Part shown: positions 19,901 through 63,400 of the stretch, piece after piece
Position numbering within the stretch: the stretch's first letter is position 1
How the letters are laid out: the number at the start of each line of letters is the position of its first letter
Assembly: GCF_037975245.1 (NCBI RefSeq)
Contig: NC_092572.1
Coordinates: 13,396,269-13,460,268 of the forward strand
Source of the DNA: Apostichopus japonicus
Taxonomy: Eukaryota > Echinodermata > Holothuroidea > Aspidochirotida > Stichopodidae
Length of the DNA: 64,000 bases
Direction of reading: 5' to 3'
Notes under the pieces: generated by a model
What the model was told of the DNA's origin: nothing
The model's input: the letters and a program-made list of their open reading frames with translations, nothing else
The model's database searches: none
Translations under genes and position numbers: made by a program

Positions 19901-22900
19901 ACCCCCACCACTATTATAGCCTATTCTATATTAAGTAGGGCATATCCTCAAAGAAATATCATCTTGCAGCATATCAATGCTGTTGATGCACGCAAGTCTA
20001 CTGAACCGGTACTTAGCATGTATCTGCCGGTCTGTCCATTGATAGAGTGGGTTGGTTCTGTCCGTAAATACCCTTTCCCTTCGTAGAGCTCGTTGGTTTT
20101 CTCTTTCAAGCAGCCCAAAAGCCATATACATAGACATCAGTGGCATCCACATTAAACACCTAAATAAAGCAATGATGTGTTTTAATTGACATGTGACACT
20201 TAAGAACATACTGAAGAGTGATGCTGATCATTCTTAAAGTTAAGAACGATTTCAGGACAAAGATAAGAATGAATTCTTCTTAAGTTGCTTTATGAAATAG
20301 AAAATAAGAATGTTCTTAAAGTTAAGAACAGTTACAGACTTAAGAATGATTATTCTTCTTAAGTCCAAGATAAGAATGTTCTTAACTTTTATGAAATAGG
20401 GCCCAGATCCTAATGGAGATGCAGTAACCGTGACATGTAATCCAGGTGCTGGCTCTACTGTAGCCAACCTTCCTGGTGTTATAACTTGTACATGCACAGA
20501 TTCATCTCAGGCAACTGATTCAATTGCTTATCTAGGTTAGACAAAATCCTATTAAAATTGTTTTGAATTATTTGATGTCAAAAATTGCAAGAAATGGCTT
20601 TGAACACAAGACAAGAACAACATTTTTCATGATCTCATCCTCGACATATTAGTTTTGTCGCACTACATTGATCCAATCAACCATGCATTTTTTTGTAATG
20701 TACATATGTTGAATATTAATAAGTGAACATAAAATCCTTAAAAAGATATCTCTGAAATTTATTTATACATATGTACTTGGATAATACAGTGTTTTAATAC
20801 GATGTCACTAAATAGACTTTGTTAACATGATTATCACTACATTATCCATCTTCATTTGTGTGTACACTTTCATGCTAACGTGTCTAGCTAACCACAGTAT
20901 GAAATATGTTTGGGCATCGGAACGACTTATTGTTTCGTTTTCTGGTATCCTTTGTTCTTCTCTGAAGTAAACAAGCCTCTTACTGTCCATTGTCATGCAG
21001 ACTTCTCTTCTCTCCTTATACCCAAACACCACAAGAAAAAGAAAAGAGAAGAGAACAGAAACAAAAGCTTCTCAAATCTACCAAAGTCTTGTGGAAAACT
21101 TGCCATAAATATAAGGCAGATTTTTTTCTTCAGCACAGAAATATTACTAGGGTACATATAAGTTCTTTGGTTGAATTAGTCATTGATTAATATGCTGCAA
21201 GACACTAACAATGAAACATACAATGAAATGTTTTGTAATAAGCTCATCTGCTTTATGTTTTCCTATTAATTTCAAATTTGCAGCTACAAACATCCCACCA
21301 GTAGCTACTTGTCCAGCTGATGTGACAGTGGTCTCAGTTCAGGGAAACAATGGAAGTGTTGCGAATTTCGACAATGTTGCTTGTGGTGACAGTGAGGATT
21401 CTGCTGGAAGTATTATAGCTACATGTGATCGTCAGACTGGTAGTTTCTTCCAAGGACTCGGAATTACTGTAGTCACCTGTACTTGTACAGACTCGACAGG
21501 TGCCTCCAATTTCTGTGTATTTAATGTCAATGTGCTGGCATTTGTCCGTGAGTATTTTCTTCTATATTTAGTAACTGTATGCTTTCAAGATTCTCACCTG
21601 TACCCCAATTCTCTTCTTAGACCTTAAAAAACCACAACAAGAAAACCAGAACAATGAAGAAAACAAAACAGAAAAGAAGATAAGATAAGAAAGAATCATA
21701 AATTTACCAAAATCTGGTAAAAATTGCAACAAATAGAAGGCACAATTGTTTCTTGAACACAGAAAAGTTGCTAGGGCTCATGTAAAGTTATTTTGTTTTA
21801 TCAAACATTGATTAATATACTGTAAGACACTAACAATGAAACATACATTGAAATGTTTTGTAATAAAAGCTCAACTGTTTTATGTTTCATTTTAATATCA
21901 ACTTTGCAGCTACAAACATCCCACCAGTAGCTACCTGTCCAGCTGATGTGACAGTGGTCTCAGTTCAGGGTAACAATGGAAGTGTTGCGAATTTCGACAA
22001 TGCTACTTGTAGTGACAGTGAGGATTCAGCTGGAAGTGTTATAGCTACATGTGATCGTCAGACTGGTGGTTTCTTCCAAGGACTCGGAATTACTGTAGTC
22101 ACCTGTACTTGTACAGACTCGGCAGGTGCCTCCAATTTATGTGTATTTAATGTCAATGTGCTGGCATTTGTCCGTGAGTATTTTCTTCTATATTTAGTAA
22201 CTGTACGCTTTCAAGATTCTCACCTGCACCCCAATCCTCTACTTAGACCTTAAAAACCCACAACAAGAAAACCAGAACAATGAAGAAAACAAAATAGAAA
22301 AGAAGATAAAATAGAATCACAAATTTACCAAAATCTGGTAAAACTTGCCATTAATAGAAGGCAGAATTGTTTCTTGAACACAGAAAAGTTGCTAGGGCTC
22401 ATGTTAAGTTATTTTGTTCTTTATACATTGATTAATATACTGTAAGACACTAACAATGGAACATACAATGAAATGTTGTGCAATTAGCTCAACTGTTTTA
22501 TGTTTTCCTATTAATATCAATTTTGCAGCTACAAACATCCCACCAGTAGCTACTTGTCCAGCTGATGTGACAGTGGTCTCAGTACAGGGAAACTTTGGAA
22601 GTGTTGCCAATTTCGACAATGCTACTTGTAGTGACAGTGAGGATTCTGCTGGAAGTATTATAGCTAGCTGTGATCATCAGACTGGTAGTTTCGTCCAAGG
22701 ACTCGGAATTACTGTAGTCACCTGTGCTTGTACAGACTCGACAGGTGCCTCCAATTCCTGTGTATTTAATGTCAATGTAAATCCATTTGTCCGTGAGTAT
22801 TCTGTTGTATTTCATGTTTTTGTTTTCATTCATAGCTATTCAGTAACGTTATAACAAGAAACCTCGTGTATTCTGTGAACTACAACTGTGACATCCTTTT

Positions 22901-36277: not shown

Positions 36278-36487
36278 CTATAATACTCCGTACCCGAGAG
36301 TTTCAATGGCATGATCATTTGCCATTCGAATAAGGGCTATCAAAGTGTCGTCACTGCCAATGGACATTTCAACAAATAAGACCTGCTTCATCTTTGGGAG
36401 AGTAATTTGTTTTGTAAATTCATCTAGAACCATCTTCGAATGAGTGTGACCATCTGAATATCTAAAAGACATACACTCTACAGAAAC
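36278..36487 (-). CDS. Gene N last exon
   Basis: The acceptor TTTCACACAG (minus strand) precedes 36487, phase 0. It encodes VSVECMSFRYSDGHTHSKMV, LDEFTKQITLPKMKQVLFVE and ends ETLGYGVL with TAG at 36278-36280. The length is 70 codons including the stop. It may be a short C-terminal region like those after NACHT/NLR helical domains. I see no leucine-rich repeats. Confidence 0.75.
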   Translation of the reverse strand, partial: VSVECMSFRYSDGHTHSKMVLDEFTKQITLPKMKQVLFVEMSIGSDDTLIALIRMANDHAIETLGYGVL

Positions 36488-38686
36488 CTGTGTGAAAGTA
36501 AGAAATATATTTTAAAAATGTAAGTTACATCAAACTAAGTGATATCGATATTGAACTGCTACTATCTTCAATATATGACTGTAACGGGTATTCAATGGAA
36601 TGAACATCAACAACAAGTTTGATAACGTGATAATAAGACTTGTTTATATGCCCTAATTAGCACAATAAAAAATAAACTTACCTTATTTGCATTACAGCTC
36701 TCGCAGAAAGCTATCGCCGCCTTCTTGTGATACCTTCTTTCCAATTTATTTATGGTAATATTGCGACTTTTTGTTAAAGTTTCGTTAATGACTTTAAATG
36801 ATGCCTTTTTTGCTTTATCCGAGGCTTCGTAATAGCAGTCCACTAATACATCCCACAGTCCTTTATTTGCCAGAAATTCTAGGACAGATCTCGCTTTATC
36901 GCCACTTGTTCCACATACAAACTGTAATACTCTTCCAATTCTATTGCTTTCTGGTGCATTTTTGATTAGCATTTCGAAAGCAAACCTCAACCTGTCAAGA
37001 GAACTGCTCGTAACATATTGAGCAATGATTAATTCCTGAATATACGGATGATAAAACTCAACACTACTTTGCGACGAATACGCTAAGTTACTAACGTCTC
37101 TTTTTGAATGATTTCTCTGCAATAATCCAATTGCTAGGGCTATATTCATTTCAGCAGCACTTAATGTGCCTTCTAACTGACTTGACTGCAAACATGAATT
37201 AAGCTCGTCATTATTTAAAGAAATCATGCCTAAACGTTTTTCAATAGATTCAATTGTTTTCTCTTCTACTGTGTTGTTAGGTTTCTGTAAATATCTCTTA
37301 ATTAAGCATGCTTTGGCGGCATTAACCAGTGATGAAAGTGAATTAATATCAATGTTCAATTCCTTCGGTCCTGTGCATATTGCCTCTGAAGCTATTATAT
37401 GAACGAACATCGTCATAAGAAGTGGACATTTACTGAACTGTTGAAATAACTCTATATCTTCCAAATGCATTTTTACAGCCGCTTTGTATGTAGCAACGTC
37501 TGGTTCCATATTATTTGGGTCTCTGTTTGATGGTAATTTATCATTGTTTTCTCGGTTCTTTGAATGTGCAGTTGCGTTATTTTTACCAAAATCTTCAGAT
37601 TTGGCAACTTGGGCTGAAGACAAATAAAACTTACATACATTTTCAACATAGTTTTCCAGCTGTTGCGTCGTGAGTGCTCGCATATGAATTTCCGTAAACG
37701 GTGAAGAAAAGTGAGCGTTATAATTATCAAGTTCCCGAGAAGTAACCCAGAGCTGCATATCAGGATAACCATCTAAATTCGAATTATGTAAAAGTTGTTT
37801 TATTTGAATATCACCAGGAGTCAGAACGTTGTGTTTCTTCATTTCTTGAGTGTTTGGTGCAATTTCATCAAATCCATCAATGACAATGCGACATTTCCTA
37901 TTCGTTAGTATATATGCTAAATCTTTTACCCTAAGGATCTGTTGAACATCAGCTGGTAGTTTGGAATACAAAGCCTCTGCTATCCCTTTATTTATGTCAA
38001 TACCTTTAGCGTGCAAGAAAAACAAAAGTCTCTCGCTCTTAGATTCTTTCGATTTTTCGGACCACTTCCACGCTAAATACTGCTGCAGCGTTGACTTCCC
38101 ATGACCGAGTGCGGCAATGAATATGATTCTTTTCATGGTATCTTGAACACCAGATTCAAGAAAGTCAGTACTCGAGACACTGCGACTGTCTTCTGGCGTG
38201 ATAACATCGAAAGATGAAGCAGTATAAACATGTTTTATATGTATTTCTCTTCCCCATGGTAAAGGCTTGATGAAGCTAAGTGTGTTGTATTCGTCTGTGA
38301 GATACTTTATTAAACGATGTGTCATTTCCTCTAGGTATAAATATGAAAGAAGGAAGAAATAGATAGAAGAGTTTTGTTTGATGTAATCAAGAGTTCATCG
38401 GTGTGTTTACAGCAATCGAATCAAATAATATTAGTATAGTGCACTAAATTTCAGTACTGAGAATTCAACGTAAGTTGTCTATTCAATTTCTTATATCGTA
38501 TAAAACAACATTATTTTGTTGTGTGAGCGAAGATTATCCTTAAGTAATGGTTAACATGATGCAGTCCTTCATATGGAATAACAAATCTGATAATACCTTT
38601 AGCGATTCCCGTAATATCTCCTTTCTCTTCTTCATTCAAAAGTGGCACTGTGGTCTAACAATCATCATTAAAACAAAACAAAACAA

Positions 38687-38772
<86 letters not shown>

Positions 38773-41700
38773 ATATATATATATCAATTTCGTTATATAA
38801 TAAATTGAATATGCAATAAAAGTATTATAACCACATGGTTAATTTTAAAATCAAGAACAATCAATTAACAGGACTGCAGTGGCGTTGCCAATATAATGTA
38901 ATCGGCGCACATTGCATAGATAACATGTAAACGACCTTGTAATCAATAAAGAGTATAACGTGTTAACACAATACAATTCTCACACTTGGTGATGACTTCC
39001 ATACTTTCCTTCTTCTAGTTTAGCGGTATTATAGCTGATGACTTAAGATCACATAAAATAATGAGGAAATAATATTACACATAAATTTTTGATACAAATA
39101 TAATTATCGTTCATCAAATTTGAATTCTAACAAATTACTATATGTTATAAAACCACAATACAGACATGCCCGATTCGTTTTAGACAAAGGCACTTTTCAC
39201 AATATAACTTACCAGTGCAACTTCTACGTTATTATTATTTCTTCGATTAGTGTTATCTGCAGAGAAAATTTAATAGACATTGTTTAGCTTAAGCTAAACA
39301 TGGTTATCGCGAATTAAACCAGACTGTTCTAATCGTTTCACCTTTCAATTATATTTAAAAGTCATGTTATCTCCACTGTCTATTGTATGTAAGGTTTTTC
39401 TTATATTTGTTTATAATTTTTCACAAAATGCCGATTTCTACCGGTTTTCTAATTCATCATATTTTGTTCATTCGTGTACTGATTTGAGCGATGATGCTTT
39501 AAATATGAGAGGTTGAACTGAAACCCTGTATTCTTAGGAATGCTCTTTGGAGTATATTATTCTCTTTAGAATTATTGATTGCACCGTTATGATCAGTATT
39601 TGAACGTCGATCTCATGCAGCAATGCGATTTCTCGGTTCTCTAATGATTGATCAGCCGATTCACACAGAGATTACAGTAACTATTGTAAATTTTCAAGTT
39701 TTGTACCACAGTAAATACTGGATCGTGCTGACAAATTTGATAAATTTGTAACATGTGCTATTAAGTTTACAGTTAGAACTGAGGATATTTATAATTCCAA
39801 ATCCCAAAACAACTGGATTTGTTGGAATTACACATATCCTTAGTTCTTACTATAATCCTAATAGCACACGCTACCGATTTATAGCACGAACTAAGTTTTA
39901 CTGTGGTACAAAACTGTAAGTTCTACAGTAGTAAATGTGTTATATATGTGTACCGGGTGATAAGGCATTTGCTGGAATTGAGAAAAGCTGACAAGATTTG
40001 TTTTGGTATACAGTTATTAGCTTTGCTTTTCTGAGATATTGTCTCTGATTATAGCCTAGTGTAGTTTAATTATCTAAGAGTTAGTTAGTTCATATATGTT
40101 CACTTGTGATCTTAGTGTACTAGTTTATATTTATAGTGTCATTTAATATCAATACATCGAACGCGCACTTGATATATTTAAATATAAATATACTGCAATA
40201 TCGTTTTAGTCCCACTTCGTTTTTCGGGCAACCGATTTCTCAGATAAGTTTGGTATCAAGTGATAGCAACTAATAGTTGACATAACCATACAATACCTGT
40301 TGTACTTAGCGGATGGCTTGAACGTATGAGATGACAGTATATGAAGTTCATATTAGTCATGAAAAGACGTACATAATGCTAAAGGCAGTCCAAATGAAAA
40401 TGACAGTTCCTTCATGCTATCATAAAAATATTAGTTTCAGTATGATATTTAGAACATCTATGTGACACTGTAGCTTTCTATGTCACCTACATGAAGAAAA
40501 TATACCACTTGAAAATCAGAATCAAATACTTACGATTCCTCTTAATAGCAAAGTAGATACAGACAAAGGTACAGAGAACTATTAGTAAAAGTGCGATCAT
40601 CAAGGCAAAAAGCCAGTGATCTTCAAAAAAAGTGGGCACACTGTGTTCCAACGACAACGTAGGTGTTGCTGACACAAAGCAACGATCTGCATGAACGAAA
40701 ATAATTTGTGACATATATTTAAGTGAATATTAAGAGCTACTTTCATCACATTCCCTTAACATGTATAACCAGCTTACAAGAACTCCATACGATATTTTTT
40801 CGCCTTAAAATGTGTATTATATGTATATCTTTATTATTTTATTACATTTCATTAATTACTCTTTTACAAAAATGTTCATTTCTAATATTGCACGTTTATT
40901 TGATGTTTGTTATATAAAACAAGCAGCATTTTAATGAACGGAATGACAAAAAAAAGTTGTTCATGTTCACGAAATCTGTATCAATGAACTATTCAGTCAA
41001 CTATTACGTGTAAGAAATGTAATACTGGTAACGAAGACGTTGTGCAAATTTTATCACCATTAAACTATTTGGTACACAAATATTATGATAGGTTTAAGCT
41101 TAAAGCGTTAACGCTTCACTTCGTCATTTAAACGAGCTCCCATTACATTATTTTACTTTGACTAGTAATAGTATATCAATATTTCGAATATTTCGAATGC
41201 ATCTGGGAGGCATTATTTTGCCTCACCCAAAGTCCCCTTGCTACTAGTATATAACAAGTCTTACCAGAAGTAAGTTCCAGAAAGCTATCACTGACGCTGA
41301 AGTCATTCTCCCCTATGACCGTGCAACGTAGTCTGATAGCTGTATCACAATTCGGTATAAGGACTACTATCATAGCTAGGCTGTCCCACGTATCACTGGA
41401 GCTATCATATGTGATATCTTCTTTTTTAAATAGAACAGTATGATTTACTGCTGTTTCAAGTAATAAGCTAAGTTTAACTAGTGGACGAGTGTTGTTGATG
41501 ATGCAAGTGACGTTATGGATCTTATTTGGAGCAGTAACACACTGACAAGACGAGCACTTTGAAACAGCCGGGCAACTTTGATGAGGCTGGACTGTAGGCG
41601 AAAGGAAGTAAAATTATTGTCCGTTAGTATAATCGTTACTCAAATTTTTAGCAATGGAAATAATATGTATTGTTACGATCATAAGAAAATACTATCTGCT

Positions 41701-44108
41701 GATGACTTTTTCTAACATATCTGATACATGTGAAAAAGTCCGTTTATTTCCAATTCAACAAACTTACTAGCAAAGAAACAAAAATGGTAGTATTGATTTT
41801 ACCATTTCACTTCAGCCCCCACTTCATCTCCTACTAGAAAACAAAATTGACTAAAATATGTGCACGTATTTATACTTCTAACGCAAACGAAGATGACATC
41901 ATATGACGACACAATGAAACACTGTGGAAACTATCTGGCTTCTCTAAAGTAATTGTAACTGAAAACTAAAAGGTCATCATACTCACTGGCAGCATCTAAC
42001 TGTACTATTTCTTCTACAAAGACAGCATCTGAGTAAATGCAAAGAATGGAGTAACGACCATAGTCTTCATACTTCACGTCGTAAATTATCAAGGCTCCTT
42101 TGTCGGTAATGTCGTAATGTCCCTCTTCCCATGTAGGTACTGTCCTTTTTCCACCAACTATCTTCACAATGGGAATTGAAGAGGACGTCTTGTCTTTGTA
42201 CCAGTATACTTCATCGAAATTGTCCAACTTGCAATCCATTGACACATTTTTACCAATAAGAGCGTAATTCCTTCTACTGCAATGAATTGTGTTACCTAAG
42301 GATAAAATATACAAATATGGAGTAGATTACAGCTAAACTGAGAGATGAATGTTGCATATCAAGGAAGAGGGGGCGTTGTGGTCAAGTGGTTAAGGCAGTG
42401 GACTTGTGATCTAAGGATAACAGGTTCGAGCCCTGGCCAGATCATTGCGTTGTGTCCTTGGGCAAGGCACTTTATCTCCATTGCCTCTCTTCACCCAGGT
42501 GAATAAATGGGGACATTCGAGGTGACTTGTAAATAGAGTTGCGTGCTGGTTATGGACTATTGTTGCTTCTGCAAGTAACTCACCCAAAAATGTCAAACAA
42601 ATATTGGTTCTACGAACTTTTCCTCAAACTGCAAGCTACTTAACACATATTGTTTAACACAAATATTATGCACCCTATGGGAAGTCCCCCAGGGGACACG
42701 TGGCTGTGGTGCACTGTGGTGCCCCAGGAGAGATTGTTTGAATTGTGCACACTTTGGTGTGTAGGTGTGACAAGTTACCAATGACCAGGGTTAAGTACAG
42801 CGCGGCGAGACTTTATTGTAAGTTGCGCTATATAAGAACTGTGAATTACTATATTATTATATCGAAACATGATCGCAACAGTCTCGGAAATGGAAGTAAT
42901 GTATTTTTCGAAAGGACCTTTCTAAATTAATCTTCGTATTTTTTATCAATAATAAATAAAAGGAGTAAGGTCCACTCAGTTGAATATATCTTCACGAATT
43001 TCTGAAAAATGGTTATGGACTATTGTTGCTTCTGCAAGTAACTCACCCAAAAATGTCAAACAAATATTGGTTCTACGAACTTTTCCTCAAACTGCAAGCT
43101 ACTTAACACATATTGTTTAACACAAATATTAACTATTCTCATTACTTTATCTCATTAGGCTGCATTGTATTTTATTGTAATTATGTGTCATTTTTTTTAT
43201 CTTGCTCTGCTAAATTTTATGTCCTATCCATTGCTGGTCGTGCAAGATGCGCAATGTTAACAAGATCGTAGGCTCGCCCTGATTCTTCCATGAAAAGCTC
43301 GTTCTCTGAACCTCACTTAGCCAAGTCTCTGAATTGTACTATTTCGAATAAGGCTATCATGCAAGACTTCATGGTATGCCTGATATCAAATAAAACATTA
43401 CCGTATGGAATTTGTGCTACTCTTCCGTCAAAGTCAGCCGTGGACAGGGCTTGACATTGGCTTGCACACGCTAGAATTGGTGCTGAAATACATTTGCACT
43501 TATTAAAATGTCATCGTATTTGTTCAATAAATTGTTAAGTGCACTAAAGCTGCCCAATATATGAAACGTTCAACAAGGAGGCTGGTCGTTGACATTACGT
43601 TGCCACTATCCGGATTGTATGTTACATTCACAGATTCGTAGCAAATCGTCAGTCAGTGTTTTTCCCAGTAAGTTTCTGTATGTGCTTTTGAAGACAGTTT
43701 GTTCGTTTATTGTCGCAGTAGTTACTTCCTTTAGGTCTAAACCAACAGTGTAAATATGGTTTATCTTTAGTTGAAATACGACCCATTCAATGCGGAAAAT
43801 GGAAACCAAATCTAACACCGATGTTTGTTATTTTCTAGGTCTACATACTTCGTTATTTTGCCACAAAACCACTTGACTAGATAATCAATTAAAGGGTGTT
43901 TCCTTTGAAATATTTTCTTTGTTGCAGTATGCTCGGAATTGATTGCAATAAAAAGCTGATATCAAGTCTACCACAGCACAACCCGAGTTAATTGTTTACA
44001 ATAATGATATAAATGAATTGTTTAGTACGCTAAGTATGAAGTCATATACTTGACCGCAGAAAACAGGCAAATGACAAGCAAAGAAATGTTTACTATATGA
44101 GCAGCCAT
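36278..44108 (-). CDS. Gene N: Ig-like transmembrane receptor with cytoplasmic NACHT domain (multi-exon)
   Basis: Minus-strand exons, in order, are: a probable signal peptide (44108-44055), 43811-43626, 43482-43402, an Ig V-like exon 42295-41987, a second Ig-like exon 41591-41265, a transmembrane exon (40686-40536), a linker exon 39256-39213, a NACHT exon 38328-36682 and a last exon 36487-36278. All junctions from 43811 on agree in phase (1,1,1,1,1,0,0). NACHT is the STAND-type ATPase of NLR sensors, which are normally cytosolic. Here the model places it behind an Ig ectodomain and one membrane helix. If correct, ligand binding outside would couple directly to a NACHT switch inside. Weak points are the unresolved junction of the signal exon and the chance that the NACHT exon is a separate gene. 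Its exon starts only one codon before an ATG. Confidence 0.68.
36682..38328 (-). CDS. Gene N NACHT exon
   Basis: This single 1,647-bp exon has phase 0-0, with acceptor CCTAGAG before 38328 and donor AAATAAG/gtaagt after 36682. Numbering from the ATG at 38325, KPLPWGREIHIKHVYTA (20-36) is the short segment that often precedes NACHT in invertebrate NLRs. Walker A is AALGHGKSTL (71-80), with the first Gly of GxxxxGK replaced by Ala. Walker B is IVIDGFDEI (147-155), and VTSRE (194-198) is the sensor. Residues 240-550 are helical, with no LRR or WD repeats. The Lys and Ser of Walker A and the Asp-Glu of Walker B are present, so nucleotide binding is plausible. Confidence 0.85.
38691..38785. repeat. 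TA microsatellite
   Basis: An AT dinucleotide run of about 95 bp with two TTT interruptions. It lies just upstream of the NACHT exon, within an intron of N on the other strand. Confidence 0.92.
39213..39256 (-). CDS. Gene N juxtamembrane linker exon, 44 nt
   Basis: On the minus strand the acceptor TTTCTCTGCAG precedes 39256 and the donor CTG/gtaagt follows 39213. It runs from phase 1 to phase 0 and encodes HNTNRRNNNNVEVAL when joined to the transmembrane exon. This is the phase change needed to enter the NACHT exon, which supports a single transcript. Confidence 0.7.
39674..39934. repeat. Imperfect fold-back (MITE-like) element
   Basis: Two arms of about 120 bp meet near 39807. For example GTTTTGTACCACAGTAAA at about 39701 pairs with TTTACTGTGGTACAAAAC at about 39897, and GTGCTATTAAG with CCTAATAGCAC further in. 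It is an intronic non-autonomous DNA element or snap-back. No clear target duplication was found. Confidence 0.7.
40536..40686 (-). CDS. Gene N transmembrane exon
   Basis: On the minus strand the acceptor GTTCATGCAG precedes the exon and the donor AATC/gtaagt follows it, with phase 1-1. It encodes DRCFVSATPTLSLEHSVPTF, FEDHWLFALMIALLLIVLC and TFVCIYFAIKRN. That is one hydrophobic helix of about 23 residues followed by basic residues. The end coordinates may be off by one or two bases. Confidence 0.82.
41265..41591 (-). CDS. Gene N second Ig-like exon
   Basis: On the minus strand the acceptor TTCGCCTACAG precedes 41591 and the donor TCTG/gtaaga follows 41265. The exon has 327 bp and phase 1-1. 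It starts QPHQSCPAVSKCSSCQCVTA and contains NVTC, NNTRP and NHTV (possible N-glycosylation) and a LRCTVIGENDFSVSDSF strand pair. It looks like a diverged membrane-proximal Ig or fibronectin-like domain. The cysteine-rich start is unusual. Confidence 0.72.
41987..42295 (-). CDS. Gene N Ig V-like exon
   Basis: On the minus strand the acceptor ATCCTTAG precedes 42295 and the donor GCCA/gtgagt follows 41987. The exon has 309 bp and phase 1-1. KNVSMDCKLDNFDEVYWYKD holds the first Cys and the core Trp of an Ig fold. GALIIYDVKYEDYGRYSILC holds the DxGxY motif in the form EDYGRY and the second Cys two residues later than usual. Confidence 0.82.
42369..42850 (+). mobile_element. tRNA-derived SINE, interrupted
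   Basis: The head resembles a tRNA, with an A box TGGTCAAGTGG (42379-42389) and a B box GGTTCGAGCC (42423-42432). A body TTGTGTCCTTGGGCAAGGCA follows, of a kind widespread in invertebrate SINEs. The 3' part with GCGCTATATAAGAACTGTGA is at about 42669-42850. The two halves are separated by the 121-bp segment 42548-42668, which also occurs at 43011-43131. It lies in an intron of N. Confidence 0.72.
42548..42668 (+). repeat. 121-bp exact direct repeat, copy 1
   Basis: It is identical by eye to 43011-43131 from GGTTATGGACTATTGTTGC to TAACACAAATATTA. The 342 bp between the copies contain the 3' half of the SINE. Confidence 0.93.
43011..43131 (+). repeat. 121-bp exact direct repeat, copy 2
   Basis: This is the second copy of 42548-42668. 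It is flanked by unique intron sequence on the right. Confidence 0.93.
43402..43482 (-). CDS. Gene N short ectodomain exon, 27 codons
   Basis: On the minus strand the acceptor GTATTTCAG precedes 43482 and the donor TACG/gtaatg follows 43402. The exon has 81 bp and phase 1-1. It encodes PILACASQCQALSTADFDGR and VAQIPY. The domain is not recognised. Confidence 0.6.
43626..43811 (-). CDS. Gene N candidate ectodomain exon, 62 codons
   Basis: On the minus strand the acceptor GGTGTTAG precedes 43811 and the donor GAAT/gtaaca follows 43626. The exon has 186 bp and phase 1-1, compatible with the next exon. It encodes FQLKINHIYTVGLDLKEVTT, ATINEQTVFKSTYRNLLGKT and LTDDLLRICE, alternating strands and helices that look like a real protein. 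The fold is not recognised. SEA-like is one possibility. Confidence 0.5.
44055..44108 (-). CDS. Gene N probable signal-peptide exon
   Basis: An ATG at 44108 (minus) starts MAAHIVNISLLVICLFSA, a typical signal peptide. The open frame continues to 44022. The end given is the GCG/gtcaag donor, which is phase 0, whereas the next exon needs phase 1. Either the donor is different, an extra exon exists, or an upstream start is used. Confidence 0.5.
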
Positions 44109-46534: not shown

Positions 46535-46586
46535 ATGTATTTAAAACGTGTGTTATTATTAATGGCTGTCAGCCTAGCTTTTTCAG
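46535..46586 (+). CDS. P2 signal-peptide exon
   Basis: It encodes [17 protein letters not shown], a classical signal peptide with basic start and hydrophobic core. The donor TCAG/gtatgt follows 46586, phase 1. The start was chosen because it gives the signal peptide and phase 1 for the next exon. Confidence 0.8.
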
Positions 46587-49500
46587 GTATGTATAGTTTG
46601 TTTTCCTATGTTTATGTGAACGAATATATGACAGTACATTAATGTAAATATTGCAATTCCATTTTTAAAATAATTATTTTCTATTAACAAACAGGCTTCC
46701 CAAACGGAAAATTTCAGCAATGTTTGTGGAATACAAGTTTTAGCAAGAATGTTTCTTTGGTACCTTGCCGAGTATCTAACGACAATGATTTGTGCCTGGT
46801 GTGTCCCATGTATATTTCTGTGTCCAGCGATGTAATTTGGAGACGGCACGACGAAAGGATTTTTCTGAATGAACATCGATTGGTTGATGATAACATTTTG
46901 CGGGATGTGTGTCACCCTACATTTTCCTCCCTTTTCATCCCAACTGTTACCTTCCATAACGCAAACGAGACGTACCAATGTAAAAGTCAGAATGGAACTA
47001 CCGTGACGTTTATACTGAGAGTTATAGGTAGGTACCGATATAACGTGACATGCTTATATTCCTATTTAATACAAAATCAATCCGCTATAAAATAACTTGA
47101 GAACAGTATTGTCAGTCCCAAATATTGATATCTCTAAGGCCAAATTCATACTTAACTTGATATATTACAGACACAATTTAATTCATGCAATAAATTTTTG
47201 TTCCTTCAATTTAGTCCATCCTACACTTTCGATTTCAAAACAGTCAGCCGGGTCGTTTTGTTCAGAAATAATGAAGAGACTGGAATGCATTGCAAATGAA
47301 GTTTTGCAGCCAGTGACGATGAAGTGGACAGTGAACAACCATGAGATTTCAAGTAAAACATTTTATGAGATTTCGAATCAAACAGTTACATGGACGAAGA
47401 CATTCAACATCCTTAGGGAAACTGACGTTGTTAAATGCAAAGTGTCTGGACCGTATATCACTCAGGTCACAACGTCATTCAACTGCTCTCGAAACGATGA
47501 AGAGCTAGGTAGGTCAATTTGATTAAATTCCTAACATTCAGGTAATCATTTATCAAACTGACGAAGTCGATAATTTGATCATTCTTATTATTCCGTGACA
47601 CGCTGAGTTGAGAGACGAAGTGTCCTAAACATATCCAGGTAAACAGTTCTGTTCAATATTAATAAGCAATAATGTAATGATGTAGTTTATGTTTCATGTG
47701 ACGTTTGATGCGTAAATACATTTATATGTATATAGGTGTGTGTGTGTTCGTGGGCCCGTATGCGTGCGTATGTGAGTGTACGCAGCACAAGCCTTGACAG
47801 CGGTAGACTCGGCCCTGATATTTTGATGAGAAAAGTCTCGGCTATCTTCGTACCATAAACTAAATCGAAAGCGAAAGGTAAGTAAGAACGAGTTCATTGA
47901 GACTGCAATGTCAAGTGCAAACGTTAGTATCATTTACATAAAATATCAAATTCACCATGAAAAGAAAAACTTGAACACTTTTGTTGAACTGCAACGGCTG
48001 AACGGAACAAAGAGTATTACAGTACATTTTTGATACAAAATCTAATAGTAAAATTTAATACGAAGTTATTCAGATTGATTTAATTGATATATAACGTGAA
48101 TACTTTTGAATACTAGAAATTATATCTGAAATTAAGAATTAACTATTCTCAATGCACAAACCATTTGATTACGAGAACGGTTTTAAGTAGAAAACATAAT
48201 TTAAACAGTAAATTACATAAGTTTCTTTTATTGAACCTAGCTACAGATGAGCATAATTCAGGATCCGACGGGACGAAGTTACTACTGGTTGTCTTTACAA
48301 TCACTCTCCTTTGCTTTATTGCTTTGATCATAATCTTTACAGTCACATTCATCGTAAGGAGAAGTCAACAAAGTAAGCTGTTATGTTAGATTTACTTGTC
48401 ATGTGATGGTCTTTTTACCAAACAGCTGTTCAGAAGAAGCATTTAAATATGGTTACATACAATTTGTGAAATCCGATTAGAATAGCTATGCATAATTTTA
48501 GCAATGACGAAAGCGTTCCAAACCCTACTCATAGTGGAGAAAGATGACTAAATCCGAGGGAAGGGACAAACATCGAGAGGAAGTGAAGATGAAACTTGAA
48601 TTGAAGAGCCAACCACAACTTTAACTCAAATTTCTAGCACTCCAAATTTAAGTATTAAGATGCCATATTACATTTCTTAGCTAAAAGAAATAAGGTTTTA
48701 TTAAAGAGCACTTCTTATTTAAATAGAACGAGTTTTGGCATGGTCTCTCACCAGACACGGGGCACCTGACCACGGTGTTGCCATTCTCACCTACCCCTAC
48801 CCATATCCAGACTCAATAATCCATGTTTTGTTTTTGCAAAGAAACTCATCGTTATTAGTTATAGCTGATTCTTGAAACAAAATCTATCCCGTATTAAATT
48901 GCCGTTTTTTATTCATTTTAATTTCAGTTCATATGCTTTTAGATTCCATGTTGCACTTGTATTTATTAAACGTGGTTGTACCGATAATAAGTCCATCAGG
49001 GCGAGCAGTGTTAGCAAAGAGCTCTCTTGTTTACACACTAGGCGTGCATGGGTATTTGTAGAATACAAAAAAACTTCTGACATTGATCTCTTTCTTTCTT
49101 CTATCTTCTTCAAGGAAAACGTAGCTTTAAAGTTCAGTTGTGAGTATCCCAATGTTATTGCTACATTTATATGTTATTACCTTATTACCAAACCTTCAGT
49201 ATCCATACACTCAAAATTGTACCCACCACTTAAGTGTTGTAGATTACATCTAAAGACTTGCATAATGTTGAGTGTATTGCTTGGCGCCTCAGTGGTGTTT
49301 CCTTCGTATCACAAGAAACTTATCACAGAAAATCTAAATCGGTCCTGCTTTTCCAGTAAATAAACAGTCTTAAACTTTTATGTGGTGTTCAATTTTCTTT
49401 TTCTTCATGTTAGGACCTGGAAGTATGGAAATATTTATATTAAATATATTTGTTTGAAAAGAGCATTAAATTATTGATCTAAACTCTATTAATTCTTGTA

Positions 49501-50565
49501 AGAAAATTGTTCTAGTCAGCCCTTATTTTGCTCACTTGCCTATCATCCCAAGGCTACATTTTCTTATTTGATTTCATAGAACTCCCTTACCGGATTTACC
49601 AATTTCTGAGAACCGAATACACGAAAATGTACAATATGAATCGCCAGATGAATTACAAGGTTTCCGTTCTTTTCTTTTAAAAATCGTTTCAGACAAAGCA
49701 CAATCACATGCATCAATTGTCGTACATTATATATTCTTGAAATTAGAGAAACACGATGGCTTTAGATAGTAACCAAAGAATTGTTGTTAGAGACGACATA
49801 AATGGATATAACGTTATTTCTGACTTAAATTGTTAGGATATTTTTTACTTATTGTGTGGGTGGGTGTATTGCAAGGTATTCGTAATGTAGTTTTGATCAG
49901 ACGCCTGCATGCATATATCAACTGAGTAAGACAGGCTTTGCTGCATTTTCGTACCATTACGCAATAATCTTCCTTTGTCACTTTACATTGTATTTGAAAG
50001 TCTACCTTTAACATTTCTTCATCATTTCTGTTGTAGGCTATAAAATATGCACTCAAGTTTTGTATAAAAACTAGCTGATGCAAAAATGTACATTTAAGTC
50101 TCATCAGCTTTTCAAAGAAATATTTAAAATATTATATGCATTTCCATGTCTCATTTATAGATATTGTGTACTTTTATGGAGACAACGTTGTTTATCATCG
50201 ATCAGACATTTTGCTTGAGAAACGTCTGCAGAGCTCAGGACGTATGATAAGATGGACAGCTTCTCTTCAAAATGGGAACAGACCTCCCTTTATAGCCAAC
50301 ACTTTACCAGGTTATTATATTAACCAAACAGTTTTTAAACATGCGTGAATGTTGTTATTTCTTTCGCCTATTTAATAGTTATACAATTGTTTGATATAAA
50401 AGGGAAGAAAAGAGTTTTAATTTAGTTTGTGCCCCATAGAAATTTACTGTAAATAATTGGTTATGAAATAATGTATTAATTATTTCTATTATCTCACCAT
50501 GCGAGTAAATGATATCTATTTATGTATTTAATTATATATATATAGTTATATATATAGCTATATAG

Positions 50566-50613
<48 letters not shown>

Positions 50614-53600
50614 TAATAGGAAGATTGGAATATTAGACGTATGATAGATATGATCCTAAGGTTCATTGGTACTAGAATGTTACATATTATGAAATGTTCC
50701 CATATATATTTTCCTTCGTATTTTACCCCGCCCAAATCATTTCCAGACATGGGTGAGTTGAAAGTAGACTATTATTATTATAATAACGTGATTTTCATGT
50801 GCAACAATAAATGATCTGATGTCTACTACATGGTTAATTTGACGATATCATATTTGGGGCAGTAAATACAACCAGATGACCAAGACTTTAATACATCACA
50901 TTCTATAACATCGTAAGGTGATCAAAATTACTAGGAAAACCAATGTTCTAATGTCCCCTTCACCTCCCTGTCTCACACATGCACACGCACGAATACAGTG
51001 CGTAGACATGCCCACAGTTGTCTATCGACAAAACGACAATGTTCACGGCTCGTACAATGTCGGTAACCTCTGCCTCTGCTGGTACTCTCTTACTGGTGAA
51101 CAGAAGCCCCTGTCCCTCCAATTCTAACCAAAACTGTGACTATTTGGGTACATTCACGTGTTGAAGTTCTTGATCCATATAAAACCGTTAGCCACTCAAT
51201 CAGCTTAGACAAAGATCGCTGAGCTTTTGTCGGTTACACACGTCTACAACCGTCAGAGTTGTAATTATGAATATATTCACATACCTGTGTGTGTTTGTGC
51301 ATGTTTTTTCCCTCTCTCCCTCTTTTATTTATTTATATTTATTTTTTTGGTTATTTCTTTCTTCTTGTTCATTTCTTTGGGCTTATGATTTCTTCCTTAT
51401 ATTACAGATTCTTCATCAAGGGATGATTGGTGTGAGATTCGATTGTTTGCAGAATATCTTCGTAGCATACCAAAACATGTGAATATTGTCGACATCGTGG
51501 GATGTGACACTAATAAAAGTACCGTAATAAAACCCTTTTTTATAATTCTTTTTTATTTATAAAATAATAAAACTTGATATTCTTTTTCGTGATACGAATC
51601 CCAAAATTTAATGTAAGAGAAAACATCTTTGTTGTTAAATGTTTGAAAAAAAATACGTTTCTTTATATTGTATTCTTGACAGCCCCTCACTTCATTTACA
51701 CTGAATATGTAACAAATGGAACACTGAAAGACTTCCTGGGTCAAAGTTCAGATGGATGTGAATATTCAACATCTATTTACAGCCCTCATGATGACTCAGC
51801 TACCGCGTATGTAAAAATAAAACAGTTGGCGTCGTTCTGCTATGAGGTTTTGGATGCAATGATTTTTCTAGAATCAATAGACGTAAGTTGTGAAACGTAT
51901 AGGCTAGCTAATAATGTAAAACGTGTCAATAAAAACAGCCATGTTTTTATTTCTAGTGATCGTCACCACCAACTGGCGTTCCTGCTCTCAATGATGGTGT
52001 TCGATTACCGTCTGAAGAACACGTTAGCCTAAGCAAGTGAAATAATAGCTAAAGGCATAATCATATTTGACCTGCTCCTCTCATAGTTCTAGAACTATAC
52101 GTGTAAATGTGTCTATTAGGACGAAAGGTTAATAATATTGACGCACAACTAATTTACAGGATTCTTAATATGATACAAATATATTTGGGTTCCTTTACTT
52201 TAAAGTTACTACATTCTAGAATTAATACCTATGCGTTGCCAACCAGATAAAGTCAAGTATTGTTGGGTGAAATGCTATTCTAGTCAATTATCTTTATATA
52301 AAATTGCATTCTTGTATTTTCATGTTAAATTCCATCGAGACCACAGACGAATATTTGCCCACGAGACATAAACTTGTTATTTGATTTATCACTCTAACAC
52401 ACGCATCAGTAATAAAATACGTCAAGAAATATTGTGGTAGTTGCAATATTTCATGACTAAAGTAAATATATCGTGCCCATATATATATATATATCTGATT
52501 TCTATTAAAGGAGCACTTGCATTAGGTATAGGTATATTTATTGTGATATTGTAAGTTCAGATGATTATATTCCACTGATTATAATTTCTCAGTGCGATCA
52601 TCCTGGAGTTTGTGCCAAAAAGGTTCTTATGAATTCCAGAGATGTCTGTAAATTATATGATTTCAACGCCTGTTCTACCACCAAGAAGTTTATATCCGGC
52701 ATAGACTTTGAGGTACGTACTGTATGGAAACCTTATGTGGGACAAATAACTCAAAATGTGTATTTTGGCTTAAGATCCACTTTATATTTACTTCAACTTG
52801 AAACATCACATCGCATGAACTGATAACTTTGTAAAATATATTTAATTTTCTTATATGTCCAATTAAACTTTCTTAAAGTGGATAAAGTACATAGTTAACA
52901 TATGTTAGTTGATTTGAATGCTAAAGGAAGTTAAAATCACAATCTTGTTATCATGTAATCAAAATCATGTAATTTATATAAAACTGATGGCGCTAACCAA
53001 CTTAGATGTTTCAATGTAAACTTGGAAAAGTGCCCCTCTTTGTGTGTGTCGCAGGTACTTCAGGCTTAGCTGCCTCAAAACGTTTTTCTGCTTCCATCAG
53101 AATAGATCGCCGATGACATTGTACCCTCCACTATAACATTAAGTCGTTTTAAAATTTACGAGGTATCACGTAAATGTATATATTTTACTGACACTATACT
53201 ATAATTTGCAGAGATGCAGCCGGCTCCCATGGTTTGCACCAGAAACAATATTCAAACGTGAATACAGTCGTTCGAGTGATTCCTGGTCTTTTGCAGTATT
53301 CATGTGGGAGGTCTACTCAAACGGTAAAATAACGATGATACCAATTTGGTCAAGGAAGCTACCATGCTAGAAAGAATGTTTCACTGACTGTTTCACTGAG
53401 CCAGAAAAACAAAATATTATGTGTATTCTCTCTATTGCTTGCACCAAATGAAGTTATAAAAGCTCACTTTGTATTTTTGTTGCATAAATGACTGAAAACC
53501 CTGACAAATGAATGAAATGATATGTTACATTAGTATGAGTCTTGCATATAGTTCAAGATTTTAAACGTTTAAACCAGTTGGCATTTTCCTACAGATCTGA

Positions 53601-54499
53601 GGTACAATTTCTTCTTTAGTCGGTTATTAAAAACATTCTTAAGTAATTACTATGTGATTTCAAATTGTAACAAAATTAAATCGCACATGCAAGTATATAG
53701 AAGTGAGCAAGCTGCGTAACATTTACGAGAACACTCTATGAACATGATTTCTTCATCAACAATTCGTTTTGTCTGTCCTTGACTGAATTATTGTTCATAG
53801 GCCTACACGGATTATTTTCTTGTCGCAGGTGGGACACCATTTATCCAGAGAACATTAGGCGACATTAAATCTGCATTTGATGAAAGCCCTCCTCTGTCGC
53901 AACCAAACCGTTGTCCAAATGAAATGTAAGCATTATACACATTAAATATAGCACAATTTAACATCGTATTATAACATTTTTGCTAATTTCAATGTAATCT
54001 GTACTACTATACTAATTTCCAGTTAAATTGTGCCTATTCTGAAGGGTAATCATACCATTTTAACCCCTGATATGTTCACTTAGATAATCATAGTCTTTAT
54101 TATTCTGTAACGTAAGATATATATTTTGCAGATGTCAACTGTTTGTTGTCTTCTGACGAAACTTTGATGTTTTTCTGACTGTCTTGGGTTTTTTCACATC
54201 CGAAGTAATTATGTTGCATCATGACTAAACTTTGACACAGCACTGGTTGTCAATTTCTTTTCTTTATCCTCGTGTTTGTCTGTTTATTTTTTTTTGTCTC
54301 TTTTTAAATTAAATGCACAGTATTTCACCATTGTCTTCCTCACTCCAATAATAGCTACCTGTTAATGAAACGTTGTTTTTGCCTTCAACCCGAAACGAGA
54401 ATCAAGTTGGCGAAGCTCAAAAAAGGGTTAAAACGATTTATTGATGGTGAAAGTGTCGTAAGTAAAGATTTCGATTGTTTCGATAATAAAATAATTTAG
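46535..54499 (+). CDS. Gene P2: Ig-like transmembrane receptor with tyrosine-kinase-like pseudokinase domain (multi-exon)
   Basis: Exons are: signal peptide 46535-46586, Ig-like 46695-47027, Ig-like 47215-47508, transmembrane 48241-48372, juxtamembrane 49580-49659, then kinase-like exons 50161-50310, 51408-51518, 51683-51882, 52593-52712, 53212-53323, 53829-53925 and 54355-54457 or 54499. All phases agree except one gap. The transmembrane exon ends in phase 1 and the juxtamembrane exon starts in phase 2, so a micro-exon like that of P1 must lie in 48373-49579. The kinase-like exons match P1 in phase and, with one 3-nt exception, in length. The same catalytic residues are lost (Thr for VAIK Lys, HPG for HRD, Lys for Asn, DFN for DFG). 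P1 and P2 are paralogues in the intracellular half only, and their ectodomains are unrelated. Confidence 0.83.
46695..47027 (+). CDS. P2 first Ig-like exon
   Basis: The acceptor AACAAACAG ends at 46694 and the donor ATAG/gtaggt follows 47027. The exon has 333 bp and phase 1-1. It contains two closely spaced Cys pairs ([17 protein letters not shown]), a core Trp (DVIWRRHD) and [13 protein letters not shown], the strand-F Cys of an Ig fold. NTS, NVS, NET and NGT are possible N-glycosylation sites. Confidence 0.78.
47215..47508 (+). CDS. P2 second Ig-like exon
   Basis: The acceptor CAATTTAG ends at 47214 and the donor CTAG/gtaggt follows 47508. The exon has 294 bp and phase 1-1. It encodes [30 protein letters not shown] (Cys and Trp of a C2-type Ig fold) and [11 protein letters not shown] with the second Cys. 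Confidence 0.78.
48241..48372 (+). CDS. P2 transmembrane exon
   Basis: The acceptor GAACCTAG ends at 48240 and the donor CAAA/gtaagc follows 48372. The exon has 132 bp and phase 1-1. It encodes [10 protein letters not shown], then [27 protein letters not shown] and the stop-transfer RRSQQ. Confidence 0.85.
48373..49579. other. P2 intron that must hide a micro-exon
   Basis: A phase 1 to phase 2 exon is required here. I could not choose one reliably. An open frame of 163 codons (48872-49363) has no recognised motif and is not flanked by splice sites of the right phase. Confidence 0.5.
49580..49659 (+). CDS. P2 juxtamembrane exon
   Basis: The acceptor TTTCATAG ends at 49579 and the donor CAAG/gtttcc follows 49659. 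The exon has 80 bp, phase 2 to 1. It encodes [20 protein letters not shown] and SPDELQ. The position of the single Tyr and the PLPxxPxSE motif parallel P1 exon 25701-25774. Confidence 0.75.
50161..50310 (+). CDS. P2 pseudokinase exon 1 (N-lobe)
   Basis: The acceptor CATTTATAG ends at 50160 and the donor CCAG/gttatt follows 50310. The exon has 150 bp, phase 1-1. [27 protein letters not shown] and FIANTLP align throughout with P1. The VAIK Lys position is Thr (IANT). Confidence 0.84.
50533..50611. repeat. TA microsatellite with AGCTATATAGCT core
   Basis: An imperfect TA run in a P2 intron, with two GCTATATAGC words in its left half. Confidence 0.9.
51408..51518 (+). CDS. P2 pseudokinase exon 2 (helix C to beta-4)
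   Basis: The acceptor ATATTACAG ends at 51407 and the donor AAAA/gtaccg follows 51518. The exon has 111 bp, phase 1-1. It encodes [20 protein letters not shown] and IVGCDTNK. Confidence 0.85.
51683..51882 (+). CDS. P2 pseudokinase exon 3 (hinge, helix D/E)
   Basis: The acceptor TTCTTGACAG ends at 51682 and the donor GAC/gtaagt follows 51882. The exon has 200 bp, phase 1 to 0, one codon shorter than in P1. It encodes [18 protein letters not shown], the insert [13 protein letters not shown] and [17 protein letters not shown]. Confidence 0.87.
52593..52712 (+). CDS. P2 pseudokinase exon 4 (catalytic loop remnant and DFN)
   Basis: The acceptor ATTTCTCAG ends at 52592 and the donor TTTGAG/gtacgt follows 52712. 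The exon has 120 bp, phase 0-0. It encodes [20 protein letters not shown] and LYDFNACS, with the same HPG, Lys and DFN changes as P1. Confidence 0.88.
53212..53323 (+). CDS. P2 pseudokinase exon 5 (APE, helix F)
   Basis: The acceptor AATTTGCAG ends at 53211 and the donor AACG/gtaaaa follows 53323. The exon has 112 bp, phase 0 to 1. It encodes [20 protein letters not shown] and [17 protein letters not shown]. The donor is GT where P1 has GC. Confidence 0.87.
53829..53925 (+). CDS. P2 pseudokinase exon 6 (C-lobe)
   Basis: The acceptor TGTCGCAG ends at 53828 and the donor AT/gtaagc follows 53925. The exon has 97 bp, phase 1 to 2. It encodes [20 protein letters not shown] and [12 protein letters not shown]. 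Confidence 0.86.
54355..54499 (+). CDS. P2 pseudokinase exon 7 (end of C-lobe)
   Basis: The acceptor CAATAATAG ends at 54354. It encodes [20 protein letters not shown] and [14 protein letters not shown]. Without further splicing the frame ends [13 protein letters not shown] at TAG 54497-54499. A strong donor GTC/gtaagt after 54457 would give 103 bp, as in P1, so a further exon is likely. One weak candidate is 55214-55228 (EDAK, stop). Confidence 0.8.
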
Positions 54500-60400: not shown

Positions 60401-63400
60401 ATGAGTGGCATATTGATTATGATTTTAGGTTACACTTGTTGTTAATATGGATCCTTGATACGCAATTTGTTTTATCATGTCAAAAGGAAATACTAATGGA
60501 CCAAGATTGTAATCAAACCACCTGTTCAAATGCAATATTAAGTCAAGGTAGACAAAGAACACAACAATACAAACAAGAACGTTGTTTCTACATACATATA
60601 TGTCAAGTCCGACCAACTCCGGGGACAAGAACCTCGGAAAAGAATAAAGGATTAATACCAATGGTAATTAAAGCAATGATGTGTAAGTGAATTTGGCATA
60701 CAACACTTTAACTAACACTTTTAGCTTATCGAGTAAAACTTTTGTCTTATTGATTTAAAGCTTAGAAAAGTTAAGAAGTGAATAATGCATTTTTCAATTT
60801 CCAAATTCTGTATTCAGGTTCTGAAAATCATACTAACAAACAATTTCAAGGATACATGCTTTGATGATATTGATCTTACTATAAAGGTTACATGTTAACC
60901 CCAAAGGAAGTAAAAATAGCTGTTTACATACATACGCAGGTGGAACAGTATAGTTCACCTGTACACAAATAAATAATTCCATAAATGATTTTAGACCAAT
61001 TGGCCTTTGTATAGTATTGTTTTCAATCGTATACTGAAAATTTTACTCAAGTACAATATGCAAGCACACTTAACTCGGTAAAATAAGAAACACTATATTT
61101 ACAACAAAGACGCAGTACTTAAAACTCTTCAAGATATTTTACAAGGACTAATTCAAAGAGAGACAACATAGACGAAGTTTAATTTTTTTGTATTTTCTAG
61201 TGATTGTAACACAGTTTTGCTAAATGAAAGACCATCGTCGCTGTATGGAAAAACCTGGCTCATTCACTTTCTGGCAGACTATCTCAAGGTTTGATGAAGC
61301 AACTGAAAGTTTTCACTGATTCCCTGATTAATCAGAGATAAAGGTCGTTGTCCCTCAGGATGGTCCTCTATCACTCTGCACAATAGTTAAGATATTCTGC
61401 AACATGAACTAGTTTTGGAGTACTTTGTCTTAAAAAAACTGATTAATATACAGAGCTGCACTTTTAAACCAGTATAATTTAACTAATTTAACTAAGGTTT
61501 TTTTCATGAGAGGAGGGCTGGGAAAGGGTGGGAGGGACCATTGCTTGTCTTCCATTACCATAAACCCTCAGGGGGAGCCAGTTTCCAGGTGCTTTAATTG
61601 GGATAAATTTCTGGCACAGTTGTACACAAAGAGTATCTAATATTATCAGCTAAGCTATACCATATGGCATCACGATCTACTACTGTGTATAATTCATTAT
61701 ATCAGTCGAGCTAAAGATAGAACGCATTAATATCATTGTTCCAAACTATCGCGTAGAAATGTTGTCAATATCAAAAGCAAATTTTGCTTCATGTAGAATA
61801 GGAACACAGCGATGACAGAAATTGACTGTTGACCGAAGAAGCGAGCAATTTGTTGGAAATTTTATCAAGAATATTTTATACAAACGTAATGTCCATGTCA
61901 AATTTAAACACCATAATCATAATTTCAGTGACCTATATAACTCAGAACATGTGTGATTGACTACATATCATATATATCAAATGTTTTTGCTTACAAAATT
62001 AACTAAACCTACAAATAATGTGCATAACATAGCGATTGATGAAATTATTATCACACACCAGTTCATTTCACCTTACAGCAAGTTATAACAGTTAGCAACA
62101 TAATTCAGTATTCAGCACGTGTTCCAAACCTTTCCTATTATTCTCCATTGATTATTGCAAAAGAGTATATTATTAATCAAGGAATCAAGTTACCATCCTT
62201 ATTGATATAAGCATTGATTAGTTAAGAGATAAAACGTTGTTGCTGGTTTTAGCAGCAAAATAATCTCAAATACAAAAATATTAAAACAGATTTCATTGAT
62301 AGCCAAAGGCATGCTTCTAGAAGTCATCGCGGTACTGTTTTTAAGCTACTCAGTGTCGCCGACACAACTTTGGGTACTCTGTACCTGAAAAAAAAGAAAC
62401 ATGGTTTTAGTTACACTAAACATGATACCAGCACATGAATACGATTTTATTGTTGAATGCACAGTACGGTATTTATTCCATGTGTTTAAATCGTTCAGCT
62501 CACGTCTGTACAATATTGTAGCCATCTGCCTCTTAAATGCATAGTCCAGTTATATCACTTGAGCAAAACTTCTTTATTTTCTTTCATTTTCCTTTTGAAA
62601 ACAGTGACGGGATGTTGCCTTATGTTATTAATGTGATGTATTGTGATATAATGGATAGGTTGAAATTGTTAAGAAAGAAAACAGAATACCTATTATCGAA
62701 TACGTAATACACGAATAAAAGTATTGTACAACCCAAAGTAAAACACTGCATGGGATGTAACGCATATCCTTGCGCTATAATCATTACGACTATAATTACG
62801 ACATTATCTTAATACCAGATTTAAACTATTATATTAACATATATTGATTTAAGTTTACAATTAAGTTAATTCTAACTGTGAGAGAAGTGTTTCATCACAT
62901 TCATTATTTTAATCATTTGTAACAAGTTGTCGACTTACATAACGACACGAATGTATCATTAGCGCCATCTACTCAATAGGAAAGGAACATTAAGCAGTAA
63001 CGTTGTCGGGGCAACTATCTATAAGTACGTGCTGTAGTAATCGAATCAATCATGTTAGATTTTGGACTGCGTAACCTATAGCAATAACGTACGCCTTATT
63101 GACCAAAATATAATTTTACCGATGAAAAATATTAGAGACTGATGCGCAATTAGTAAGAAGCATACAAAAGTGAAAAGTTTATTTCCAAGTTCCATTTGTT
63201 GGGTTGAGCGTTTCTTCTTTTCCGTCGTTTTGTTTCCTTGTTACTGAAAAGGGAAAAGACATTCATGACTATGATGAAATACAACGAAGAATGATTCACA
63301 AAACTGAATGTTTAGTTAATGACATTATGTACAGTGTTCCTTTTTAGCGGACATTACAGGTATACAACACTGATGTCACCCATTACCAGGCTAGGAGTGT

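Follow-up and report, generated by a model that had tools for sequence, protein, structure and literature searches.

A 64,000-nt stretch of the Apostichopus japonicus genome (contig NC_092572.1, positions 13,396,269 to 13,460,268, forward strand; here called the window) contains a gene, gene A, in which two immunoglobulin (Ig) exons, a transmembrane (TM) exon and a NACHT exon can be joined in one frame. Gene A belongs to a tandem array of five minus-strand genes (A, B, C, D and E) at 13.43–13.60 Mb of this contig. It spans positions 44108–36278 (coordinates not given in Mb are positions within the window), and its exons and splice sites, read directly from the sequence, are as follows.

44050–44108, minus strand: exon 1, signal peptide (MAAHIVNISLLVICLFSAV), with counterparts in genes B and C
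43402–43460, minus strand: short exon 2, of presumed use; 77% of 22 residues kept in gene C
41987–42295, minus strand: Ig domain 1 (Ig1, V-set) exon, 309 nt, phase 1-1; Pfam V-set 8.3e-6, exon alone
41265–41591, minus strand: Ig-like domain 2 (Ig2) exon, 327 nt, phase 1-1; 82–84% identity to genes B and C
40534–40686, minus strand: TM exon with basic stop-transfer, 153 nt, phase 1-1, called by hydropathy
39213–39256, minus strand: linker exon, 44 nt, phase 1-0
38597–38654, minus strand: second linker exon, 58 nt, phase 0-1, TTVPLLNEEEKGDITGIAK, with counterparts in P0001 and P0002
36682–38330, minus strand: NACHT exon with ALGHGKST, IVIDGFDE and VTSRE; Pfam NACHT 2e-9
36278–36487, minus strand: last exon, 69 codons and stop (TAG); 94% match to P0002

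Structure and domain content of gene A

From Ig1 onward all exons of gene A have AG/GT borders (the last has AG and a stop) and their phases fit. An earlier annotation made from the letters alone (the sequence-only reading) had described consecutive phase-matched exons on the minus strand; the series holds, with the addition of the 58-nt exon at 38654–38597 that it had missed. The product of this exon has counterparts in the annotated paralog P0001, there encoded by a separate exon, and in P0002, a protein from another assembly. With the 58-nt exon placed between linker and NACHT, the NACHT exon begins at 38330 and not, as first read, at 38328. Since the paralogs conserve the 58-nt exon, a direct 39213/38328 splice was rejected as the main form, and it may be an isoform. 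The 44-nt linker (39256–39213) converts phase 1 to phase 0 just as described, and the open NACHT stretch from 38328 to 36682 comprises the 549 codons expected. The joined frame encodes 955 residues, made up of signal peptide, Ig1, Ig2, TM, two linkers, NACHT and the last exon. The intron upstream of Ig1 holds two identical 122-nt copies (42547–42668 and 43010–43131), which suggests a very recent local duplication.

Pfam identified a V-set domain in the Ig1 exon taken alone (E 8.3e-6, 26.4 bits against a cut-off of 26) and a NACHT domain both in its exon alone (38.0 bits, E 2e-9) and in the joined protein (36.4 bits, cut-off 26.7). The NACHT domain carries the Walker A motif ALGHGKST and the Walker B motif IVIDGFDE; compared with the usual P-loop pattern, the first Gly is Ala in gene A. 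Apart from the signal peptide, one helix rises above the hydropathy threshold (3.16 at residue 277). On its N-terminal side stands EHSVPTFFEDHW and on its C-terminal side a basic stretch containing RNHNTNRR, a type I pattern that bears out the single membrane helix with basic stop-transfer that had been proposed. CARD and LRR had no Pfam match in the joined gene A protein at E values up to 1, and, having no C-terminal LRR, gene A is not filed here as a classical NLR. The nearest solved structure to a four-sequence profile (the NACHT exon of gene A and three paralogs) was NLRC4 (5aj2, E 2.7e-4). Weak matches to the NLRC4-like HD2 domain, all under its cut-off of 33.1 bits, were seen in P0001 (E 0.0021, 19.0 bits) and in the related protein P0008 (E 0.012, 16.6 bits), and Pfam gave no such match in gene A.

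Within its own genome the TM exon had three matches at E values up to 0.001, namely genes A, B and C. We compared nonsynonymous with synonymous substitution rates (Ka/Ks) exon by exon. For comparisons with gene A the ratios were 0.30 (Ig1, A–C), 0.35 (Ig2, A–B and A–C) and 0.39–0.42 (TM, A–B and A–C), and across all three pairs of A, B and C they were 0.34–0.35 for Ig2 and 0.39–0.47 for TM. The NACHT exon of gene A, which has no close paralog in this genome, stands outside this set; NACHT ratios were 0.47–0.49 for C–D and C–E and 0.62 for D–E, the last pair having 0.67 in Ig1 and 0.23 in Ig2. These values support a coding function and show purifying selection on the Ig and TM exons, and the whole-exon ratios gave no sign of positive selection.

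Relatives of gene A among holothurian proteins and loci

A protein search with gene A returned three matches and a five-sequence profile returned ten, all from A. japonicus. A profile of two more distant paralogs returned 24, comprising 17 from A. japonicus, five from Holothuria leucospilota (all on one contig) and two unassigned. Both profile searches scored only the roughly 8000 candidates that had the largest number of words in common with the query, so that relatives may be missed. Similarity to the family was the basis on which 34 distinct proteins were retrieved, and they are not an unbiased sample. Ig1, Ig2, TM and NACHT are all present in 21 of the 34, including proteins from H. leucospilota (Ig1 is incomplete in P0009), and eight others have TM, NACHT and Ig2 or part of Ig2. 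Ig-TM-NACHT proteins thus occur in another holothurian, where the sequence-only reading had advised to look for them. On two contigs of 4,354 and 3,538 nt, which look like spliced transcripts, the full order runs without interruption through 986 and 983 residues.

The same proteins bear on whether gene A is one gene at all. Its exons could instead make two abutting products, a short-tailed Ig-TM protein and a cytosolic NACHT protein translated from the ATG at 38325, an alternative already raised by the sequence-only reading. A start codon is indeed present there, an unspliced TM exon would reach a stop 15 codons past its donor (the frame ends at 40487), making a short-tailed form possible, and NACHT occurs without Ig or TM in three retrieved gene models (P0011, which is marked partial, P0025 and P0033). 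However, two phase-matched linker exons bridge TM and NACHT in gene A, corresponding exons exist in the annotated P0001, and all parts stand in one chain in those 21 proteins; we regard two separate products as highly improbable.

At the genomic level, ten 10-kb stretches beside NACHT matches were inspected. A TM-like exon was found in all ten and both Ig exons in nine. At the tenth locus (C21) same-strand Ig-like exons lie at least 1.8 kb past the fetched stretch, and their position alone suggests that they belong to the C21 NACHT gene. An eleventh stretch (gene M) holds all parts, so that, with gene A included, Ig, TM-like and NACHT exons are found together at 12 of 12 loci. The 11 loci beside gene A were picked from 76 genome matches, mostly the top ones, and are not a random NACHT sample; at least 106 Pfam NACHT matches were scored in the genome, most of them outside the loci examined. 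At these loci TM exons were assigned from their hydropathy, their position and a basic flank, and several stretches hold other hydrophobic frames. The exon order of gene A is more than chance: Ka/Ks against paralogs lies below 1, and other loci as well as annotated single chains show the same order. Judged by sequence and exon order, gene A is a member of a known holothurian Ig-TM-NACHT multigene family. On another contig (C7, 15.54–15.82 Mb) a cluster of Ig1-like exons lies close to distant NACHT matches.

The family is known from two published proteins of the same species. AjNLRC4 (MN607598) is a membrane receptor whose Ig domains are extracellular and which has a TM segment and a NACHT domain but neither CARD nor LRR (PMC8699970, PMC11932488); gene A shares this order. 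It binds microbes and dimerises, its intracellular part contacts beta-actin and it drives uptake of Vibrio splendidus (PMC8699970); it also forms a complex with AjCASP-1 (PMC11932488). AjNLR-new (PIK48001.1) likewise combines Ig, TM and NACHT in a single chain and is a membrane receptor, and its authors state that genes combining these three elements were identified in A. japonicus (PMC13133943). The proposal that Ig-TM-NACHT is not a described receptor class was therefore wrong, and the architecture itself was discarded as a novelty. Identity of gene A with either protein was likewise rejected on TM position and length. The TM segment of AjNLRC4 is published at residues 483–503, compared with about 277–299 in gene A, and its second reported TM segment (776–795) has no equivalent in gene A. 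AjNLR-new has 1197 residues and is reported with two TM segments (PMC13133943), whereas the product of gene A is 955 residues long and, besides its signal peptide, has a single TM segment. Past the Pfam NACHT match, a weak hydrophobic stretch (for example TPLFIVMFIHII) is present in the NACHT-exon product of P0001 and five other retrieved proteins (at residue 602 in P0001, 628 in P0008 and 634 in P0010), and the reported second TM segment of AjNLRC4 may be a buried helix of this type. NLRs with an Ig V-set domain have also been reported from the apodid Chiridota heheva (PMC8913654); the likeness to gene A covers the V-set domain together with an NLR.

Support for an extracellular Ig sensor joined across the membrane to a NACHT switch comes from the exon structure of gene A, its type I charges and the purifying selection on its Ig and TM exons, and further from the recurrent order among the retrieved proteins and the published membrane localisation of AjNLRC4 (PMC8699970). 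Several observations weigh against reading gene A in this way. In the domain search on the joined protein, which returned NACHT well, V-set reached 21.1 bits, under its cut-off; Ig2, the second of the two Ig-like domains first described, had no Pfam match at E values up to 1, and its Ig-like label comes only from its similarity to paralogs and from the names that publications give to the family. The published topology of AjNLR-new, with NACHT outside and Ig inside, is opposite to that proposed for gene A (PMC13133943), and the kinship of gene A to AjNLRC4 and AjNLR-new rests on published domain order, neither sequence being identified among the 34 proteins. Five of the 34 have no TM call, three of these also no Ig. 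No transcript of gene A was seen, and it is known here from genomic sequence. Ig1 of gene B is split over two frames and the NACHT exon of gene D has an internal TGA, so some array copies look broken or decayed in this assembly.

Gene A itself may be affected at its 5′ end, a further point against it. The signal-peptide exon ends GCGG/GTAAGT in genes B and C and GCGG/TCAAGT in gene A; as the GT of B and C reads TC at the same place, the paralog-type phase-1 donor of exon 1 is lost in gene A in this assembly. A GT 4 nt downstream combined with the acceptor at 43460 keeps the frame open, and this is the splice that gene A may use; an alternative acceptor at 43482 would require a phase-1 donor. 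With its donor altered, gene A may work through the predicted downstream splice or may be impaired. That it is a decaying copy, with Ig and TM exons left without a working start, is a reading we consider unlikely but serious. The changed donor and the breaks in Ig1 of B and NACHT of D speak for decay, but the exons of gene A are open with AG/GT flanks from Ig1 onward, the nearby donor-acceptor pair preserves its frame and its Ig and TM exons have Ka/Ks of 0.30–0.42, a value that recent loss would not alter.

We consider it probable that the product of gene A is a surface receptor with type I topology that belongs to the holothurian Ig-TM-NACHT family and has the architecture of AjNLRC4, in an array of mosaic genes. 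The ligand of its Ig ectodomain would come from a microbe or a cell surface; ligand binding would lead to clustering in the membrane and the NACHT domains would be brought together beneath it. The resulting NACHT oligomer would then drive a response, most likely actin-dependent uptake by analogy with AjNLRC4. For gene A itself we infer expression, use of the 5′ exons, ligand, signalling and the route of exchange discussed below.

Separate histories of the ectodomain and NACHT halves

The Ig exons of A, B and C are 71–84% identical to one another, those of D, E and two copies at 18 Mb (F and G) are 65–92% identical, and identity between the two sets is 33–41% (34–41% when only D and E are compared with A–C). 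The NACHT exons group differently: C, D, E, F and G are 68–85% identical (77–78% for C against D and E), and identities are 32% for A–C, 40% for B–C and 25% for A–B. Gene A and P0002 are 87% identical in NACHT, yet 38% and 28% identical in the Ig exons. Trees agree with these identities. In the ectodomain tree A, B and C were joined (99/99), as were D–G (100/99); in the NACHT tree C grouped with D–G (100/99) and A with P0002 (100/100). By the approximately unbiased (AU) test, holding A, B and C together was rejected for the NACHT tree (p 6e-36). For the ectodomain tree, holding C with D–G was rejected more weakly (p 0.010) and holding A with P0002 was rejected at p 0.0023. Each tree had 11 rows; the C21 locus (K) was omitted, there being no Ig in its fetched stretch, and gene M, fetched later, is absent. 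Some rows were partial, namely the longer Ig1 fragment of B, the NACHT of D before its stop, one of two NACHT fragments of J and a 233-residue NACHT for P0002. The array genes are mosaics, in which ectodomain and NACHT halves have different closest relatives.

The change of parent can be followed in the DNA. Using 250-nt windows, introns included, among the fetched stretches of A–E, we find that the resemblance of gene C to A and B begins shortly before Ig1, continues across TM and reaches into the intron that follows, further for B than for A; past that point gene C resembles D and E. Identity of its windows is 72–92% with B before the switch and, after it, 79–90% with D or E, apart from a single 40-nt match to B on the far side. 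Gene C changes parent inside the TM-to-linker intron. The similarity of gene A to B and C ends in the same intron, at 39960–39967, and further on the windows of gene A had no counterpart at E 1e-4 in the stretches fetched for B, C, D and E. Two features of the window belong to this comparison.

39643–39969, no strand assigned: inverted repeats, with 87-nt arms 72% complementary and inner 61-nt arms 82% complementary, at the edge of the similarity to B and C
63182–63750, minus strand: last two coding exons of gene B, the next tandem copy (annotated protein P0003)

Unequal rates or an assembly artefact, rather than gene exchange, might produce the same discordance. Grouping for the AU tests was decided once the identity matrix had been inspected, both trees drew a long-branch warning from the program, the outcome of the ectodomain test for gene C was moderate and the array is repetitive. 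Against this, the introns switch along with the exons in gene C, and P0002, from a different assembly, combines an A-like NACHT with Ig exons whose best match in this genome is 43% each, so we judge artefact or rate to be quite improbable as the source. That the Ig exons of P0002 have no close match here could itself reflect a paralog missing from this genome, a different haplotype or a join made by the gene model of the other assembly.

Extracellular and intracellular halves thus seem to have been swapped between neighbouring copies, and this history of reassortment is possibly new. We found no report of exchange between ectodomain and NACHT in an Ig-TM-NACHT family in the available text of the open-licence literature searched, which does not imply absence elsewhere. 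There is a likeness to the NLR-B30.2 genes of zebrafish, in which the trees of the recognition module and of NACHT also differ (PMC4852459). There the discordance was attributed to gene conversion, with exon shuffling in the origin of the family, and the module is the C-terminal B30.2 domain (PMC4852459), whereas in the array of gene A it is the N-terminal ectodomain, together with TM, that was exchanged. Between gene E and the copy at 18.150 Mb, Ks is 0.94 in Ig1 compared with 0.29 in Ig2 and 0.27 in NACHT. Ig1 exons may also have been exchanged separately.

The divergent neighbour and the array as a unit

A second receptor-like gene starts 2.4 kb from the start of gene A, on the opposite strand.

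46535–54457, plus strand: divergent neighbour with signal peptide, two Ig-like exons, TM and a tyrosine-kinase-like domain (11 exons listed)

The juxtamembrane part and 3′ end of this model are provisional. Its joined protein matches PF07714 (PK_Tyr_Ser-Thr, 4.2e-43), and its Ig matches are weak and under cut-offs. The usual catalytic motifs are missing, with YDFNA at the place of one of them, and the gene looks like a pseudokinase. Copies of its Ig exons lie next to B, with 96% and 95% identity, and next to C, with 80% and 89%, also divergently, so that at least the 5′ part of this neighbour belongs to the unit duplicated in A, B and C. The stretches fetched for D and E, which extend only about 3.5 kb upstream of Ig1, contained no divergent Ig exon. 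Over 1.9 kb the 5′ part of the divergent gene is 95.8% identical to the region beside B, a higher value than the 81–85% across most of the receptor gene's 5′ part.

Elsewhere in the window, positions 4164–22803 (plus strand) contain HYR-domain frames, and Pfam identified HYR in both of those tested (11562–11879 and 21187–21624). Duplication in this region is recent, with blocks about 7.7 kb apart that are 90–100% identical and three copies about 620 bases apart that are 93–95% identical in the best block.

Taking the array as a whole, we tentatively put forward a model that could well be wrong, in which it is a germline combinatorial system. A 5′ cassette (shared promoter region, signal peptide, Ig pair and TM) and a 3′ NACHT cassette would be exchanged via the TM-to-linker intron, pairings would differ between individuals and each unit would be co-regulated with a divergent Ig-TM pseudokinase. 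What stands out is the apparent swap between surface and NACHT halves by way of a single intron, together with the pairing with a divergent pseudokinase-type receptor gene.

A little-known published receptor type is now tied to a tandem gene family, and the family view questions the published topologies with two TM segments or with NACHT outside. The sensor and signalling halves of family members have separate histories. If sensors are indeed reassorted onto NACHT switches and the pairings vary between animals, holothurians would provide a testable example of surface receptors of innate immunity that diversify in the germline by modules.

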